DNA from: a virus
Strand: one strand, 5' to 3'
Virus record (IMG/VR): IMGVR_UViG_3300037341_000028
Span: 1 to 48,856 of that record
Length of the DNA stretch: 48,856 bases
A program made the position numbers and the translations under genes. Shown piece by piece: positions 17,140 to 34,038 of this stretch. Below the pieces are notes generated by a model, which saw nothing but the letters and a program-made list of their open reading frames with translations, searched no databases and had not been told where the DNA came from. Position 1 is the stretch's first letter; every line of letters begins with the position of its first letter.

Positions 17140-17369
17140 GCATTTCCCTCCACTTGCTCTCGCAGCCGTTCCATGGCTAGCGGCAGACTGTACCACGGCG
17201 GCGCGTCTGTGTCGTCTAGCGTCCAGTATGGCGCCGTGGGCGCCTCGATACCGAGTGCAGTAGCAAGGCGCTCCAATTCGGCATGTAGAGCGCGGCGTTG
17301 TTCGGCCCGCGCTGCCAATTCGGGCTGGTCGGAGTGGTGGCGTTGTGTGGTGAGTTTGCGGCGTGCCAT
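17136..17369 (-). CDS. Small protein downstream of the primase-helicase, unknown
   Basis: 77 residues; its ATG shares a base with the stop of the primase-helicase gene. Residues 1-20 are basic (MARRKLTTQRHHSDQPELAA), followed by a helix (RRALHAELERLATALGIEA) and an acidic Trp-containing segment (APYWTLDDTDAPPWYSLPL). No family is recognised; a partner of the helicase is only suggested by coupling. Confidence 0.6.
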   Translation of the reverse strand: MARRKLTTQRHHSDQPELAARAEQRRALHAELERLATALGIEAPTAPYWTLDDTDAPPWYSLPLAMERLREQVEGNA

Positions 17370-19546
17370 TAGTAGCCCTCCACAGCGTTATACCCGCCGT
17401 TCTCATGCAGCCATTGTGCAACCTGATTACTCGCATCCGCCCGACTTGCAAATGGTTCGGGCCAAATGATATGGCCTTGATCATCCGTTAACCAGTGCTG
17501 CCCATTGTCGATTGTGATGCGGAGTGTACCCGATGTGTGTGCACTGAGTACATCCCCGATGTACTCTTTTTGCGATTTTTCGCCTATAGAATAGCAGGCA
17601 GAGTAGGCAGAGTTACCAAAAAATGCCGTTTTATCGCTTCCTGATGCGTCGCCAACTCTGCCACCCCCCCAGGCAGAGTTAGGCAGAGTTGGGGCCCCGT
17701 AGGCAGAGTGCCTACTCTGCCTACTATTCCCACTCTGCCCACTCTGCCTACTCTGCCTGCAAATTTTCTCGTATTTGCCATAACCCACTTTACGAACAAG
17801 CAAGCTATCGGCAAGGTGACGTAACTGTTTTTGCACAGCATTGACGGTGGTTTCCAGTTCGGCGGCGATGTCTTTGGGTGTGTACTGGATGCCTTCCTGC
17901 ATTACCTCCAGAACGCGCTGGCGCTCGCTCGTGATGGCATATGCAGCCGCGTCACCTTCGATACGGTGCTCAGTCGCATAATCATCCCATGACAGCGCCA
18001 GTTCCTCATCGTCAACATCGCGGCCACGAATATGGAGCACCATGTCATCAGAGCCAGGCACGCGCCCGATAATCCACATCGTTGCGACGCCGCCCGTCAG
18101 ACCAGTAGAACCGCTGATCTCATCAAATACATCATCGGCCTTGGCCTTGCGGGTGTGATGAATAGTAATGATCGTAATGCGGTGGCGCTCTGCAAACTCG
18201 TTCAATGGCTTGACAGCATTGTAATCGTCGTCGTATGGGTTTGCGTTCTTGTCTCGTGGTGCCCTGATATTCTGAAGGATGTCCACAACAATGAGCGCGG
18301 TTTTCGGATGATGCTGCATCCATTCCTCGAGCATCTGAATGCCCGCCTCGCCGCGTTCCCAGGATGTAAAAAGATGGAAGTTATCAGGCCATTCGAGGGT
18401 ATCCCCAAGCATTGCCCCGACGCGGCTTTTCATGCGGCGTTGATTGCTCTCCAGATCGAGATACAGCACCTCGCCGGATCGTGTGTCCAGACTGTCAAAC
18501 GCCTTCCGCTGCTGCATTGCCACAGCCAGTGACAGACCGAGCGCCAGCCATGACTTCTTGGTCTTCGGTTTGCCAGCCATCAGGCAACAGCCTTCCGGTA
18601 GCAGGCCCGGCACAACCCACTGCAACTCGTCAAACTCTTTACGACGCAGCGCAAACAGCGTAATGCCTTCTTGTATCCAGGCTGGCGTATAGACTGTGCC
18701 AGTACGGGCGCGCTTTTCGAGTGCCTGCAATGTCTCTTCGGGGTTGTCGCGGCAGAAATCAGCCAGGTCATAACCGAAATCATGACCCAGATCAATCGCC
18801 GTTCCCCTTACCTGCTCAGCGATTTGGGGTGCAATCCTACGGCCTTTATCGTCGCTATCGAGCGCCACATACACCCGGCCCTGCCATCGCTCCTGAAGCT
18901 CTTCTACAAGCAGCTGCGGTAACTTCTTCTCACCGCCTGGTACACAGATGGCAGGCACACCGTAGTGATGAGCGACCACAGTAGACGCCTCGCCATTGCA
19001 GATGATCAGGCAGTCGAGTTGCATACTGATTGCCACACCAAGCCCATACCAACACGGTTTCCAGCCTTTTTCGTGATCGTACTTCAGCCCGGCTTTCTCT
19101 TCGTCCAGATACCGATACCGGGTGCCCGTCTGTGTCGCAATAGCCAACACCTTATGGCCGCGCCGCCGGGTTTCTTTCCACCCGGCGCGGCTAAATACCT
19201 GTTTGCTCACACCGTGTTTTGTAGCGTAATCCTCGAGCGAGGTATACGCCGGTTTCGGTGCGTATGTGGCGCCCTGCGTCAACCCGGCGCGCTCCCAGGC
19301 GGTGCCTGGTAACTGCGTGTCGTTGGGTGTCTGGATATTCAGGCGCTCAGCCAACTCCCGCTGGCTCCCGCCTTCCTCGTCTTTGTGATCGTACCAGACT
19401 AGAAAGCCATCATCGTTTTCCGACACGGCGAGCGTGCCCCCATCGGCATCGGCTCGCCACGGTGTGTTGTAGCGGCCTTCGCCGTGCTGTGTATTCTGGT
19501 ATGGTTCGAGTGCCTGCAAGATAGCGGTTTTTGTGTCGTACATCAT
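17369..19546 (-). CDS. Toprim primase-like / RepA-type helicase replication protein
   Basis: 725 residues from the ATG at 19546, preceded by AGGACACG. Residues 1-95 resemble the N-terminal unit before phage Toprim domains but lack zinc-binding Cys. The Toprim fold spans about 175-270 with Glu186 (CNGEAS) and Asp230/232 (ALDSDDKG). A RecA-type AAA domain spans 310-530 with Walker A around 324-332 (AGKPKTKKS) and Walker B 418-422 (LIVVD). A winged helix lies around 540-595. Residues 596-655 are a Gln/Ser/Arg/Gly-rich linker encoded by repeated DNA 9-mers. It is expected to unwind the origin and possibly prime synthesis. Walker A has Lys where Gly is usual. Confidence 0.85.
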   Translation of the reverse strand: MMYDTKTAILQALEPYQNTQHGEGRYNTPWRADADGGTLAVSENDDGFLVWYDHKDEEGGSQRELAERLNIQTPNDTQLPGTAWERAGLTQGATYAPKPAYTSLEDYATKHGVSKQVFSRAGWKETRRRGHKVLAIATQTGTRYRYLDEEKAGLKYDHEKGWKPCWYGLGVAISMQLDCLIICNGEASTVVAHHYGVPAICVPGGEKKLPQLLVEELQERWQGRVYVALDSDDKGRRIAPQIAEQVRGTAIDLGHDFGYDLADFCRDNPEETLQALEKRARTGTVYTPAWIQEGITLFALRRKEFDELQWVVPGLLPEGCCLMAGKPKTKKSWLALGLSLAVAMQQRKAFDSLDTRSGEVLYLDLESNQRRMKSRVGAMLGDTLEWPDNFHLFTSWERGEAGIQMLEEWMQHHPKTALIVVDILQNIRAPRDKNANPYDDDYNAVKPLNEFAERHRITIITIHHTRKAKADDVFDEISGSTGLTGGVATMWIIGRVPGSDDMVLHIRGRDVDDEELALSWDDYATEHRIEGDAAAYAITSERQRVLEVMQEGIQYTPKDIAAELETTVNAVQKQLRHLADSLLVRKVGYGKYEKICRQSRQSGQSGNSRQSRHSAYGAPTLPNSAWGGGRVGDASGSDKTAFFGNSAYSACYSIGEKSQKEYIGDVLSAHTSGTLRITIDNGQHWLTDDQGHIIWPEPFASRADASNQVAQWLHENGGYNAVEGY
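17596..17758. repeat. Ten 9-mer repeats inside the replication gene (iteron-like, possible origin)
   Basis: AGGCAGAGT occurs directly at 17596, 17605, 17671, 17681 and 17701. Its complement ACTCTGCC(T) occurs at 17655, 17714, 17732, 17741 and 17750. Five copies per orientation in 163 bases, arranged as direct groups that face each other, are far more than chance. They encode the low-complexity linker of the primase-helicase. Phage origins inside the initiator gene are known (lambda ori lies in gene O), so an origin is a reasonable inference; a coding repeat of no further role is the alternative. Confidence 0.7.
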
Positions 19547-19565: not shown

Positions 19566-20120
19566 TTATTCGGCCACTTCTCCATCGATAACCGTGCCGT
19601 CAAACTCGCTTGCCAGGTACAAGCCGGCTAGCAGATCAGGCACCACGATGCGAGCGCACATACTGATAGCGCGCCACCTGCACATATTCGCCGGGTACTT
19701 TTTCCAGTTGCTATCTGGTTTCACCAACCCGGCCCGCTCTGCATCCTTCACGCTATAGGTAAGCGTGAAGCGAAACCCGGTACTCCTGATCATCGTAACG
19801 GTGCAGGCGTCGTCGGTGCTGCTGTCAATCGAGAGGCGCACAATGTCGGGTCGGCTTTGGATTTTCGCTAGCATTCCCTGCGAGGTGAGCGCAACCTTGC
19901 CCATTACCACTTGCAGATTATCGCCCACCGAGGAAAGCGGGAACCCCAGTTCATACGCCTTGAGCATCGCAAACGCGGCCTGCTCCGGCTTACTCACGCC
20001 TGCTACCAGACGGCATTCATAGACGGTTTCAGCCATCGATGTAATCAGATGCCACGCCTCAGGCGTCACTTCGCGCCGCGCAAGTTCGGTGGTTGTGGTC
20101 GGTACCAATTCGGTGGTCAT
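19566..20120 (-). CDS. RecT-like single-strand annealing protein
   Basis: 184 residues. The block QAAFAMLKAYELGFPLSSVG, then LQVVMGKVALTSQGMLAKI, and near the end WKKYPANMCRWRAISMCARI and VVPDLLAGLYLASEF, is the shared layout of a short RecT-related family in phages: a motif for growing on ssDNA ends, a G-K-x-x-L-T strand and a conserved K/R-P-x-M-x-R-x-R. Such proteins anneal complementary single strands during recombination and replication restart. It overlaps the stop of the ERCC4-like gene by 4 bases and lies just before the primase-helicase. Confidence 0.75.
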   Translation of the reverse strand: MTTELVPTTTTELARREVTPEAWHLITSMAETVYECRLVAGVSKPEQAAFAMLKAYELGFPLSSVGDNLQVVMGKVALTSQGMLAKIQSRPDIVRLSIDSSTDDACTVTMIRSTGFRFTLTYSVKDAERAGLVKPDSNWKKYPANMCRWRAISMCARIVVPDLLAGLYLASEFDGTVIDGEVAE

Positions 20121-24483: not shown

Positions 24484-24708
24484 ATGAGTGACCGTGCCAC
24501 GCGATACCGCAAGCGCCATCCGGAGCGTGTCAAGGAGGCACAACGCCGCTGGCGCGAGCGCAACCGCGAACAGCGCCGCGAATACAACCGCGAGTATAAG
24601 CGGCGAACGCAGAAGGGCTACCGCCAGCGCCGCAAGGTTGCGCTATGGAATAGCATTATAGGGGTGTACGAGCGTGACGAAACAACAGACATTTGTAGAG
24701 ACACCTGA
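24484..24708 (+). CDS. Highly basic helical protein
   Basis: 74 residues, starting right after the previous stop. Residues 5-52 are almost only Arg, Lys, Glu, Gln and Tyr (RYRKRHPERVKEAQRRWRER and NREYKRRTQKGYRQRRK), one long basic helix likely to contact nucleic acid, similar in feel to N-terminal parts of phage HNH-associated proteins. Overlaps the next gene by 35 bases. Confidence 0.55.
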   Translation: MSDRATRYRKRHPERVKEAQRRWRERNREQRREYNREYKRRTQKGYRQRRKVALWNSIIGVYERDETTDICRDT

Positions 24709-25585
24709 ACCTGAAGCCATTTTACGCGCTGCTGTGGCCGCGTATGAGCCGCGCCTTGTTGTGGCTGCCGTGTCAGGAGGGCGCGATAGTATTGCAGCCG
24801 CGCACGTCGCCAGTCAGCACCCGCGATTTGCAGGCGTTTTGCACCTCAATACAGGCATCGGTATTGAGGAAACACGCCAGTTTATACGCGACGTGTGCCA
24901 GGATCGTGGCTGGCGGCTCTGGGAGTATCGCGCTGTGGATAACTGCCGTGCTGATGGTACACCTGATCCAATGGTGTACGAGCGCCTCTGTATTGAACAC
25001 GGGTTCCCCGGCCCGGATCAGCATCGCAAAATGTACAGCAAACTGAAACAGCGCCCGCTCGCTATGTTTTTGCGGCATATTAAAGAGCGGCGCGGTGACA
25101 GGATTATGATTGTAGATGGCATCCGCAGTCAAGAGAGCGTACGAAGAATGGGCAATGCTGCGCTACAACGGCGCGACGCGAAAACCGGCTGTTACTGGTC
25201 ATCGCCGCTATACTATTTCGACAAAGGCCAACGCGACGAATACACAGCAGCCTATGACTTGCCTGTCAATCCGGTGTCGGAGCGGTTGTGCATGTCGGGC
25301 GAATGCAAATGCGGTGCCTATGCGACGATAGGCGAGCGCGATTTGGATAGGTTTTTCTATCCTGATTTCGCCGCCGATCTGGATAGGATTGAGCAGGCAG
25401 TACAGGCAGCTCGCGACGACTACAACGTCTGGGGATGGGCAGCCACACCAGAACACGCCCGCCGCTGGGCGCGTCAACGTGTGCCAGCGGGGCAATCTGA
25501 TTTTTTGCCGCTTTGTGTCGGCTGCGATAATCGGATGGCAATGCAAGCTGAAGTGATAGGAGAGCAGGATGGCACGACGCGCTAA
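24674..25585 (+). CDS. PAPS-reductase-like ATP pyrophosphatase family protein
   Basis: 303 residues from a GTG. The PP-loop SGGRDSIAAAHVA at about 34-46 binds ATP; GVLHLNTGIGIEETRQFI and VDGIRSQESVRRMG match the core of the phosphoadenosine phosphosulfate reductase superfamily. Cys pairs LCMSGECKCGAY (about 214) and LCVGCDNR (about 281) look like an iron-sulfur or metal site, as in DndC and related phage proteins. It may activate sulfur or adenylate a substrate for nucleic acid modification; the phage roles of this family are not settled. It overlaps a VRR-NUC nuclease gene by 17 bases. Confidence 0.8.
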   Translation: MTKQQTFVETPEPEAILRAAVAAYEPRLVVAAVSGGRDSIAAAHVASQHPRFAGVLHLNTGIGIEETRQFIRDVCQDRGWRLWEYRAVDNCRADGTPDPMVYERLCIEHGFPGPDQHRKMYSKLKQRPLAMFLRHIKERRGDRIMIVDGIRSQESVRRMGNAALQRRDAKTGCYWSSPLYYFDKGQRDEYTAAYDLPVNPVSERLCMSGECKCGAYATIGERDLDRFFYPDFAADLDRIEQAVQAARDDYNVWGWAATPEHARRWARQRVPAGQSDFLPLCVGCDNRMAMQAEVIGEQDGTTR

Positions 25586-26737: not shown

Positions 26738-26884
26738 AGGCGTGGCTAGGCATGGCTAGCCTTTGGCGAGGTGTGGCACGGCATGGCAGGGCAGGCTAGG
26801 CACGGCTGGGCGAGGCACGGCAGGGCAGGCGTGGCGTGGCTTGGCGGCCCCCGGCATGGCGGGGCGGGGCATGGCAAGGCGTGG
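26738..26884 (+). repeat. GC-rich pentamer array 1 (NGGCN units)
   Basis: About 147 bases of imperfect tandem five-base units of the form NGGCN, most often AGGCA, TGGCA, GGGCA, CGGCA and TGGCG. It fills the region 26699-26911 between the Myb-like gene and the next start, apart from an AT-rich stretch at 26699-26737 that may hold a promoter. Strand-asymmetric (G-rich on +). See array 2 at 28168. Confidence 0.85.
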
Positions 26885-28167: not shown

Positions 28168-28382
28168 ACACGGCAGGCAAGGCTAGCGGGGCTAGGCAGG
28201 TCCCGGCCCGGCAAGGCTTGGTATGGCAAGGCAAGGCAGGCATGGCAGGGCAGGGCGTGACCAGGCAAGGCTCGGCATGGTTGGGCAAGGCTTGGGAACC
28301 TGGGCACGTTCGAAAACTGCCCACAAGGCAGGCGGGGCAAGGCGCGGCGTGGCCAGGCCGGGCGAGGCGTGGCACGGCAAGG
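28168..28382 (+). repeat. GC-rich pentamer array 2 (NGGCN units)
   Basis: About 215 bases of the same degenerate pentamers as array 1, starting at the stop of the preceding gene and ending 26 bases before the dCTP-deaminase-like gene. It is interrupted at 28297-28326 by an island containing a hairpin (TGGGCA at 28301-28306 and TGCCCA at 28318-28323). An ORF passes through it only because the repeats lack stop codons. Confidence 0.85.
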
Positions 28383-28408
28383 TTTTTTACAGAAGGGAGA
28401 GGGGGGGT

Positions 28409-28969
28409 ATGATATTAGGAAACGACGCAATCAAGGCGGCGCTTGACGCGGGCCACATCGTGTGTGATCCCGCGCCCGACGCTGCCGCTATCCAGACACA
28501 TATCGACGTGCATCTAGGCGCAGCGTTCTGGGTGCCGCGCCCGAATAGCGCGCCGATTGACATGCGGCACTGCGACCCACACGACTACTATATGTTATTA
28601 GAGAACTGCACAGAACACGACCCGGTGATACTGTCGCCGGGCGGGTTTGCACTGGCACACACCGACGAATACGTCGGCACTACGGTGCCGTGGCTGGAGC
28701 CGCACCTCGAGACGCGCTCGACCGTGGCGCGGTGGGGCATCACCGTCCACGTGAGTGCCGGGATAGGCGACGCCGGGTATTGCTCACGGTGGACACTCGA
28801 GCTGTACAACCACAACAACGTTTCCATCCGGGTATACGCCGGGCTACGTATCGGATTAATCAAATTCTACCGCGTCGAGAGTAATAGCAGCCTCTACACA
28901 GGCCGATACAACACGCCTGCAACCGAGTGGCAGGCCACGGCAATGCTGCCGCGCCGGGGGAATGTATGA
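28409..28969 (+). CDS. dcd: dCTP deaminase / dUTPase family enzyme
   Basis: 186 residues from the ATG at 28409 behind AGGGAGAGGGGGG. It has the trimeric dUTPase-like fold order: MILGNDAIKAALDAGHIV, VILSPGGFALAHTDEYVG (conserved P-G-x-F-x-L), ETRSTVARWG with Ser104 and Arg108, VSAGIGDAGYCSRWTLELYN with Glu131, and YAGLRIGLIKFYRV. Ser, Arg and Glu fit dCTP deaminases, which make dUTP from dCTP. It likely adjusts nucleotide pools for phage replication; whether it also hydrolyses dUTP cannot be told. Confidence 0.85.
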   Translation: MILGNDAIKAALDAGHIVCDPAPDAAAIQTHIDVHLGAAFWVPRPNSAPIDMRHCDPHDYYMLLENCTEHDPVILSPGGFALAHTDEYVGTTVPWLEPHLETRSTVARWGITVHVSAGIGDAGYCSRWTLELYNHNNVSIRVYAGLRIGLIKFYRVESNSSLYTGRYNTPATEWQATAMLPRRGNV

Positions 28970-30229: not shown

Positions 30230-31102
30230 ATGAGCAAGATCATCACACACACATCGCCGGATTGGGACGCTATCGGGAGCGCGTGGCTGTTGCAACGCCA
30301 TGACAGTCACTACGAGCACGCTGAGATTGTTTGCGCTAGTCGTGAGCAAATCGAGGAATACAAAAACACGCACGCCGCTATTGTGGATTGCGGCGGCATC
30401 CTTGATCCGCTTGGGCGCCGCTTCGATCACCACCAGATGCCTGAGAGCGCCGCGAATGAAACGTGTGCTGCGTTGCTCGTCTGGGAATGGCTCGGCGGGA
30501 AGAGCGGATTTGCTGCCCATCTGGAGCCGCTTATCATGCTCATCTGGGCAGGCGACACAGGACGCAACAAATACGGCGCAGATGTAAGCCGCGAGGTTGG
30601 CCTGCACGCACAACTCAGCGCCCGCAAAGCGGCAGACTGGACGGACGCCGCATTAATGGAGTGGGGATGCCAGGAGTTTGATCTGCTGGCAGCACGCTTG
30701 CAGCGACAGGCAGAAGCCGCCGCCGAGCTTGCGGAGAAACTTGTGTGGCGTTCCGAAGATGGCAAAGTCGTTGCCATTGAGCACGGACAGCCGCGCCACA
30801 GTCAAGCCGCGTTCGCCGCCGGGGCAACGCTGGTAGTGTTCCGCAGCGACATTCCAACAGAGAACGGCACATCTTACGCCATCGGCATCCAAAGCAATCA
30901 GGCTGCTGAGTTCCCGCACGTTGGGGCTGTCCTCGCGGACTCCGCGGTGGATAGTGCAACACAGGTTGATGATTGGTTCCGCCACCCAGCGGGCTTCTTT
31001 GCTGGACGCGGCACAAGCAAGGCCACGCGCTTTGACCCGGTGCCTGACGGATTGACGGTTGACGCTGTGGCTCGCGCCATTGACGCAGCGTGGGATCGTT
31101 AG
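30230..31102 (+). CDS. DHH-family phosphoesterase-like protein
   Basis: 290 residues. Motifs THTSPDWDAIGSAWLLQR at about 6-23 (D-x-D) and VDCGGILDPLGRRFDHHQ at about 52-69 (D...DHH) are metal-binding motifs of the DHH/MYG1 superfamily. AALLVWEWLGG and LIMLIWAGDTGRNK follow as expected. The C-terminus has GTSYAIGIQSNQAAEFPH and HPAGFFAGRGTSKAT, like the substrate-binding DHHA-type part with a G-G/R-x-S pattern. The family cuts nucleotides, short oligonucleotides or DNA ends. Its role here is unknown; nucleotide signalling or RNA/DNA turnover are options. Confidence 0.75.
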   Translation: MSKIITHTSPDWDAIGSAWLLQRHDSHYEHAEIVCASREQIEEYKNTHAAIVDCGGILDPLGRRFDHHQMPESAANETCAALLVWEWLGGKSGFAAHLEPLIMLIWAGDTGRNKYGADVSREVGLHAQLSARKAADWTDAALMEWGCQEFDLLAARLQRQAEAAAELAEKLVWRSEDGKVVAIEHGQPRHSQAAFAAGATLVVFRSDIPTENGTSYAIGIQSNQAAEFPHVGAVLADSAVDSATQVDDWFRHPAGFFAGRGTSKATRFDPVPDGLTVDAVARAIDAAWDR

Positions 31103-32721: not shown

Positions 32722-32777
32722 TTGTACAGGATTGACACAACGTGTTATAATTGGCTTATAAGTTTGTTATAAGTTGT
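32722..32777 (+). promoter_or_regulatory. parC: parM promoter with three 11-bp tandem repeats (parC candidate)
   Basis: Three contiguous 11-mers at 32745-32755 (TTATAATTGGC), 32756-32766 (TTATAAGTTTG) and 32767-32777 (TTATAAGTTGT). They overlap the -10 region: TTGTAC (32722), 18 bases, TATAAT (32746), or TTGACA (32732), 19 bases, TATAAG (32757). In plasmid R1, ParR binds 11-bp direct repeats around the parM promoter to form the centromere and repress the operon. The same repeat length and place here support a parC function; only three copies are seen, against ten in R1. Confidence 0.7.
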
Positions 32778-32792
32778 TGTGAGGAGGGGTGT

Positions 32793-33845
32793 ATGCATGT
32801 CGTGTATGATGATGGGGCTGGATTGACAAAGGCAGGCATAGCGGGCAATGGAATGCAGGTCACGGCGATACCAGCACTGGTGCTACCCGTTGAGGCGGGT
32901 ATGGATGAGGAGTACCTATTGCGTTCTGATGTGATTGTTATCGGTCATAATCGTAATCAGTATCTTGTGGGCGATGCGGCCCGCGCACAGGGCGCCACTG
33001 CCTATGCCACAAGCAACTACCGCTACACGTCGCCAGATGCGCGCATCCGCCTCTACGCGGCGCTGTCCGAACTACTCCCGCCTGGAGAGCACGCCATTCG
33101 GATGGTCGCGGGGGCGAACGCGGAAGCATATCGCGCATTAAAACGCGATATTCAAGACTTCTTCACAGGCTCACACGAGTTCACGCGAGCGGACGCGAGC
33201 TACCGTGTGAATATCACAGACGTGCATGTGACCTCACAGCCGCGTGGCGCCGTGCTCTATTTCAGCGCACATACTCCTGCTGAACTGAAACAGGCACTCC
33301 AGAAGCGACCGCTCCATAGGGCCAACATTATTGGTATTGACGTGGGCACATTCACCACCGATTTGATCGCGCTCCGGCCCGAACGGCGCGCCGATGGCAG
33401 CAGTGAAATGCAAGAAATCTACCGGCGTTCTAAAGCGTTGCGGTTTGGCGTCCAGACGCTACGCAATAAGGTTGCCGAGTTGATCCAGCGATTGCAAGGC
33501 GCGCCGGGTCTGCCGGAACTCTGGGAGGTTGATCGGGCCATTGCAGAGCGGGTTGTGACCATTGACGGCAAGGATGAGAGCATCGCGCCTGAGATTGACG
33601 ACCTTCGTGATAGTCTCTGGGCACGCGCACATGAGGAGATACGTGCCCATTTTGAAGGTTTCTCAACGCATTATTTGCTGGTTGTCGGAGGAGGCGCAAC
33701 AGATACGACGTTCGGGCCGTCCATTCGTGCAACGTGGCACGGAAAACTGCCGATGGGAATGCCAGAAAAACACGCGCCACACGAGGCGCCTGTCAGGGGA
33801 TATGCAGAAATGGCTGTGCAGAAGTGGGGCCGTGACAATGCCTGA
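32793..33845 (+). CDS. parM: ParM-like actin, segregation ATPase
   Basis: 350 residues from the ATG at 32793 (GAGGAGGGG upstream). Actin-fold motifs are clear: phosphate 1 VYDDGAGLTKAG at 4-15, phosphate 2 IIGIDVGTFTTDLIAL at 179-194 and adenosine motif YLLVVGGGATD at 294-304. Length and motif spacing match ParM/StbA and related plasmid actins (about 320-350). These polymerise into filaments that push or pull DNA bound through ParR. The parR-like gene overlaps its end by 8 bases, and three 11-bp repeats precede it. Phage relatives such as AlpC move prophage DNA, an alternative role. Confidence 0.9.
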   Translation: MHVVYDDGAGLTKAGIAGNGMQVTAIPALVLPVEAGMDEEYLLRSDVIVIGHNRNQYLVGDAARAQGATAYATSNYRYTSPDARIRLYAALSELLPPGEHAIRMVAGANAEAYRALKRDIQDFFTGSHEFTRADASYRVNITDVHVTSQPRGAVLYFSAHTPAELKQALQKRPLHRANIIGIDVGTFTTDLIALRPERRADGSSEMQEIYRRSKALRFGVQTLRNKVAELIQRLQGAPGLPELWEVDRAIAERVVTIDGKDESIAPEIDDLRDSLWARAHEEIRAHFEGFSTHYLLVVGGGATDTTFGPSIRATWHGKLPMGMPEKHAPHEAPVRGYAEMAVQKWGRDNA

Positions 33846-34038
33846 GCCGCGCCGCTATACACTGCTGCTCTATCTGGACGATGAGAGCGACAACGCCATT
33901 GCTGAATGGCTCGACAGCCTCTCATTACGGAAACGCCAAAACGATGTAAAGGCGGCCCTACTGCGCGGCATACAGCAGCAGAACGCGCCACAGCCGCCAC
34001 AGTCGCCTGATGACGATGATGATACGTTCACGCTCTAA
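33838..34038 (+). CDS. parR: ParR-like centromere-binding adaptor
   Basis: 66 residues. RRYTLLLYLDDESDNAIAEW followed by LDSLSLRKRQNDVKAALLRG is the ribbon-helix-helix pattern of small ParR proteins encoded just downstream of parM: a beta strand Y-T-L-x-L-x-L, then W-L-D-S-L...R.R...K.ALL. The C-terminus (PQPPQSPDDDDDTFTL) is disordered and acidic and ends in hydrophobic residues, as expected for the tail that grips the ParM filament end. It should bind the 11-bp repeats at 32745-32777. Confidence 0.8.
   Translation: MPEPRRYTLLLYLDDESDNAIAEWLDSLSLRKRQNDVKAALLRGIQQQNAPQPPQSPDDDDDTFTL

Follow-up and report, generated by a model that had tools for sequence, protein, structure and literature searches.

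A putative iteron origin inside the gene of its proposed winged-helix initiator, a viral primase-helicase

A compact array of short facing repeats lies inside a primase-helicase gene of a 48,856-bp virus record (the whole stretch analysed here, called the window below), which also carries terminase, portal and tape-measure genes. We consider it highly probable that this array is an iteron replication origin located within the gene of its own initiator and bound by the winged helix encoded by that gene. An earlier note on this DNA had proposed such an origin in a Toprim-helicase initiator gene, and this remains the best reading of the locus, with origin activity inferred from the sequence comparisons described below.

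Results

A dense array of facing repeats

The 8-mer core GGCAGAGT occurs ten times within 17597-17757 (161 bp), five times on each strand, with the sites mostly 9 bp apart and arranged in facing groups (Table 1). The earlier note had reported a 9-mer found five times per orientation in 163 bases; the place was correct, and the five-plus-five count holds for the 8-mer core, but the exact 9-mer AGGCAGAGT is present in eight copies (five on the plus strand and three on the minus strand) in the 48,856 bp. In shuffled versions of the whole window, AGGCAGAGT occurred 0.20 times on average and a count of eight was never reached. When the whole window was scanned in 300-bp stretches, the array was the densest cluster of short repeats (10 copies, rank 1), and the next-ranked place, at 28.1 kb, had six copies in a single orientation, while shuffled genomes contained at most three copies per 300 bp.

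The A/T-rich block that adjoins the array is conserved at the DNA level in relatives and is, speculatively, a candidate melting region. The AT content of this candidate region in the window's family is approximately 0.60-0.65, which is not unusual for the locus, and the AT excess beside arrays, about 10% across families, is weak in the window's own family. A perfect 9-bp hairpin (GAGTACATC/GATGTACTC), with a T-run after it on the plus strand, is found beside this block, at 17546-17566, and is not strictly conserved in relatives. Scans for tRNAs and Rfam families returned nothing. The cumulative GC skew of the window, which had been suggested as a check on the origin, does not point to 17.7 kb: there is no turning point at that position, and the minimum lies near 23 kb, where gene direction changes. 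The sign of the skew tracks gene direction and is uninformative about an origin at 17.7 kb.

Table 1. Coordinates of the array, its sites and the surrounding gene in the window.
Feature	Position	Strand	Basis
Whole iteron array	17596..17758	.	repeat counts and density scan
Iteron GGCAGAGT	17597..17604	+	core match
Iteron GGCAGAGT	17606..17613	+	core match
Iteron GGCAGAGT	17655..17662	-	core match
Iteron GGCAGAGT	17672..17679	+	core match
Iteron GGCAGAGT	17682..17689	+	core match
Iteron GGCAGAGT	17702..17709	+	core match
Iteron GGCAGAGT	17714..17721	-	core match
Iteron GGCAGAGT	17732..17739	-	core match
Iteron GGCAGAGT	17741..17748	-	core match
Iteron GGCAGAGT	17750..17757	-	core match
A/T-rich block adjoining the array, candidate melting region (speculative)	17565..17594	.	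DNA-level conservation in relatives
Primase-helicase gene (Toprim-like, AAA_25, winged helix, iteron-coded linker, C-terminal domain)	17369..19546	-	ORF and Pfam
Toprim-like domain, residues 212-268	18800..18970	-	Toprim_2 E=0.0031, weak, under curated cut-off
AAA_25 / RSF1010 RepA-like helicase domain, residues 317-488	18140..18655	-	AAA_25 E=3.7e-27; profile and structural search
Winged helix, residues 556-613, proposed iteron reader	17765..17938	-	domain, profile, structure prediction
Recognition helix region, residues 584-598, ETTVNAVQKQLRHLA	17810..17854	-	alignment with relatives
Small ordered C-terminal domain, residues ~678-740	17384..17572	-	AlphaFold2

The protein encoded around the array

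The gene runs on the minus strand from an ATG at 19546 to a stop at 17369, and a TTG upstream, at 19603, is a possible alternative start. Its helicase belongs to the RepA/DnaB RecA-fold class: a profile search matched RepA (1g8y, E=1.3e-13) where a PDB search with the single sequence had been empty, and a structural search gave DnaB and RepA as the best folds (1olo_B, Z 20.9, rmsd 3.2, 220 aligned). Among solved structures, its nearest relatives are hexameric DnaB and RSF1010 RepA. The structural matches listed were filled by the helicase domain, so that the absence of winged-helix entries among them says nothing about the winged helix. At E 0.01, Pfam gave no match in the protein to an initiator domain of the Rep_3 or RepA_N type.

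The array encodes residues ~615-670, which places it in a linker between the winged helix and the C-terminal domain; the earlier note had likewise recognized a linker between the winged helix and the C-terminus. In an AlphaFold2 model built from 68 sequences (mean pLDDT 85.8), this linker has a pLDDT below 50, and the helicase, winged helix and C-terminal domain around it are ordered. Because the linker is predicted to be disordered, it would be free to encode iterons.

Selection on the array DNA

Synonymous variation was counted in six close relatives at codons with an invariant residue. Of these, 5 of 43 varied synonymously within the array and the A-rich block, compared with 336 of 470 upstream in the gene (Fisher 9e-15), which indicates that the array DNA itself is under selection. 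Sites on opposite strands encode different peptides (NSAYSA and TLPNS as opposed to RQSRQSG), and selection for a peptide repeat therefore cannot account for the sites of both strands.

Co-variation of recognition helix and sites

In the AAA domain the relative L017 is 94% identical to the window, but identity falls to 59% over the winged helix and to 40% over the recognition helix, whereas L015 and L016, at the same AAA distance from the window, have kept 93-95% of the winged helix and 87-100% of the recognition helix. At aligned positions and on both strands, L017 carries GTCACTCT in place of the window's GGCAGAGT and AGAGTGAC in place of its ACTCTGCC. The linker peptides of L017 differ from those of the window although the register of the array is kept. 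The observation that would have spoken against an origin, homologues with the same linker but without the DNA repeats, is thus reversed in L017, where another linker peptide accompanies an array in register with a new motif. The pair formed by L017 and the window amounts to a natural swap of reader and sites, and makes specificity directly testable.

A tandem scan of viral contigs with the L017 motif, blind to protein, recovered the contig of L017 itself and 20 other stretches. In two of these 20 (L236 and L239) the repeats form a facing array inside an AAA_25 winged-helix gene; the helicase (AAA) of L236 is 37% identical to that of L017, and AVKKLL in the recognition helix is common to L236, L239 and L017. 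In a third (L231) the tandem directly follows the stop of an AAA gene. A distant fragment, L051, has the recognition helix LNAVxxQLR, compared with VNAVxxQLR in the window, and contains GGCAGAGT sites in similar order. Among 45 stretches from a motif scan with GGCAGAGTNGGCAGAGT, facing clusters were found only in the window's family and in L051. We rejected L023, L040 and L050 as facing arrays, these being low-complexity runs in one orientation, and most of the remaining stretches had two copies only. A profile scan built from close relatives only returned the same ten contigs and nothing further.

Arrays at other AAA_25 winged-helix loci

We surveyed approximately 150 loci with the pattern AAA_25 plus winged helix from bacterial genomes and viral contigs, 145 of which were testable, and called an array where the top 8-mer at the gene's 3' end exceeded all 60 dinucleotide shuffles. 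Arrays were called at 60 of the 145 loci. Among controls of equal length, 0 of 144 taken upstream, within the helicase, and 8 of 137 taken further downstream gave one (Fisher 7e-22 and 5e-13, respectively). The loci had been selected with helicase patterns and are to some extent redundant, the 60 with arrays forming 28 groups at 50% AAA identity. The shuffle test gave no significant array at the other 85 surveyed loci, and AAA_25 relatives such as L067, L071 and L072 showed none. After removal of one near-duplicate, 22 arrays lay in the gene, 12 across the stop and 25 after it.

The motifs vary among loci (ACCATTGA, CCCTAAGA, TGTCCGAA, AAGTTACC and others), and in several families the number of sites per strand is very unequal (7:1, 6:1, 9:3). 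Copies are grouped by orientation, one and then the other, beyond chance: 78 orientation switches were observed, compared with a mean of 133 expected and a minimum of 109 in 2000 shuffles. The spacing mode is 9 bp in coding and noncoding arrays alike, and because the noncoding arrays share this mode, the codon frame probably does not account for it.

Across the loci, motif similarity tracks the recognition helix beyond helicase relatedness. Partial Mantel tests of motif against recognition helix, given AAA similarity, yielded r=0.29 (p=0.0003) for 40 loci and r=0.21 (p=0.001) for 25 nonredundant loci. Of eight segments with 15-16 residues each, the recognition helix gave the strongest correlation, followed by the middle of the winged helix (0.15); one AAA segment (400-414) had a weak correlation with the motif (r=0.13), and the other segments had none. 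Because partial Mantel tests can be over-confident, we give more weight to the single pairs (L017, L236/L239 and L051).

One such locus is on pATHE01 (L065), an 8.3-kb plasmid of Caldicellulosiruptor bescii, a culturable host, in which a Prim-Pol domain replaces Toprim in an AAA_25 winged-helix gene. This gene contains nine AGAGTGAA sites (L065 1738-1901), which encode IHSIHSIHS. Shorter AAA_25 proteins are encoded in an Enterococcus faecalis plasmid record (L068 3904-4445) and in Streptococcus phage phi-SsuZKB4_rum (L070 3904-4446). Their genes end in GGTGACAG repeats, which run on past the stop in facing orientation, with tetracycline-resistance genes nearby, and these repeats are probably the replication origin of the two mobile elements.

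Other features of the virus record

The region 32743-34038 on the plus strand contains a ParM/actin-like gene (ALP_N E=4e-15) and, after it, a small ParR-like ORF that matches Plasmid_stab_B weakly; directly upstream of the ParM-like gene are repeats of GTTATAA/CTTATAA (32743-32775). This region resembles a plasmid partition system, and because such partition-like genes are present, the virus may be a phage-plasmid. No ParM-like gene was found in the relatives, whose records are fragments. Two intergenic GGCAnGGC clusters, each in one orientation and about 1.4 kb apart, lie on the plus strand at 26738-26881 and 28176-28380; they are also found in the relatives G003 and G005 and are absent from the 53.7-kb relative G004. 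The rightward gene block includes PAPS reductase-like (24674-25585), dCTP deaminase-like (28223-28969) and MYG1/DHH-like (30230-31102) genes, all on the plus strand.

Discussion

In the mechanism that we propose, the winged helix preceding the linker would bind the GGCAGAGT sites, and these facing, closely spaced sites would collect the RepA/DnaB-type helicase and its primase-like N-terminus on the DNA. Strands would open locally, perhaps at the A-rich block, after which helicase rings could load and the N-terminal domain could prime, so that replication would start at the array. As winged helix and array changed together, the origin would become specific to its element.

The co-variation of recognition helix and motif supports binding, not initiation as such, and would also be expected if the array served its own winged helix in regulation, as an autorepressor operator or in copy-number control or handcuffing. 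Iterons of known plasmids also serve copy control. However, in all families surveyed the arrays occupy the 3' end of the gene, far from the promoter, and a promoter scan near the array gave nothing above chance on the gene's strand. Moreover, the proposed reader belongs to a helicase-primase, and origins with a related layout are known (PMC7581432), so that regulation in place of initiation is an unlikely role for the array. Retention of the facing repeats for a hairpin, in single-stranded DNA or RNA, and not as single protein sites, is quite doubtful as well. The array strand does form a strong hairpin, with a predicted folding energy far below that of shuffles (-61.8 kcal/mol, z -9.6), the pairing would survive an in-register change on both strands, and a stem-loop origin, which the array could resemble if it is not an RNA element, follows the primase-helicase gene of pRN1 (PMC4234260). 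Such folding is nevertheless expected of any facing repeats, a stem needs no tandem 9-bp spacing, the strongly unequal strand numbers of several families do not suit it, and it would not predict the correlation with the recognition helix.

Repeat arrays are common at centromeres, and the ParM/actin-like gene and weak ParR-like ORF on the record might suggest that the array is a partition site. These par genes are 15 kb away and have upstream repeats of their own, however, whereas at other loci the arrays follow the AAA_25 gene, with a motif that tracks the winged helix of that gene; we regard a centromere-like function as very improbable. That the array is a low-complexity coding repeat spread by slippage, with no function as DNA, would agree with tandem 9-bp units equal to three codons in a disordered linker, but can hardly be reconciled with a unit that is present on both strands with different peptides, with the suppression of synonymous change, with a register kept through the motif switch, or with the 9-bp spacing shared by noncoding arrays elsewhere.

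An iteron origin inside the initiator gene thus remains the reading that we prefer for the window, and we think it fairly probable that the window exemplifies a widespread, undescribed class of one-polypeptide replicons. Members would combine a primase (Toprim or Prim-Pol), a RepA-type AAA_25 helicase and a winged helix, and the 3' end of each gene would carry a facing iteron origin for that member, often in coding sequence; winged helix and array would be exchanged, or would co-evolve, as a specificity cassette, and the link between helix and motif could be read from sequence. This offers a testable role for many such proteins, as self-contained origin-binding helicases. Their origins could be located with sequence data only, to an accuracy of a few hundred bases, in phages, in plasmids and in contigs from several bacterial phyla, and the short cognate origins are possible vector parts for poorly known hosts.

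The earlier note had called the origin lambda-like, a comparison that holds for its placement in a gene and not for its initiator, which is not O-like but has an AAA_25 helicase of RepA/DnaB fold and is closer to SaPI Rep, SCCmec Cch2 and P4 alpha. The iterons of lambda are located inside gene O. They are the origin repeats bound by the initiator (PMC5043065), and the lactococcal phages TP901-1 and Tuc2009 have origin repeats inside the replisome organizer gene (PMC8965321). In all of these, as in the window with its inferred binder, the protein that binds the repeats is encoded by the sequence in which they lie. However, lambda O and the replisome organizers are not helicases, whereas in the window the proposed reader, a winged helix, is part of a polypeptide that also contains a helicase and a primase-like domain, and the sites of the window are 8-9 bp at 9-bp spacing, in contrast to the 19-bp inverted repeats of lambda.

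The helicase of P4 alpha is of another class and the P4 ori lies outside the gene, a general description that sets the window apart in helicase class and ori placement. Otherwise P4 alpha is a single polypeptide that unites a Toprim primase and a helicase with origin recognition (PMC4234260), as the protein of the window would do. Initiation in RSF1010 requires three separate polypeptides, RepA, RepB and RepC (PMC4234260); its RepA resembles the helicase domain of the window, which is joined in one protein to an iteron reader and a primase-like domain. The origin binder of RSF1010 is the separate RepC; in the window a fused winged helix tracks the motif, and a separate initiator could be encoded elsewhere in the record. 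The archaeal plasmid pRN1 encodes a primase-helicase, ORF904, in which a winged helix is C-terminal, and has its stem-loop origin behind this gene (PMC4234260); it thus shares with the window both this domain combination and an origin adjoining the 3' end of the gene. Its helicase is of SF3, however, and its stem-loop origin is without iterons, which the window has in an array that also folds strongly.

In the literature covered, most subscription journals lying outside it, searches for iterons with primase and winged helix, or for AAA_25 with iterons, found no papers, and there was no example of a RepA-class helicase joined to a primase-like domain and an iteron reader, with an array that often lies in the gene and a reader that changes in step with its sites. 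The C-terminal domains of SaPI Rep and SCCmec Cch2 recognize iterons just downstream of their own genes (PMC7581432), and like the protein of the window, these initiator helicases pair a C-terminal DNA-binding domain with iterons at the 3' end of the gene that encodes them. By description, the window differs from them in its RepA/DnaB RecA-fold helicase, its primase-like fusion and an array that can lie within the gene. The locus is best explained as lambda-like in placement and SaPI-Rep-like in logic, with a helicase of the RepA/DnaB-fold class.
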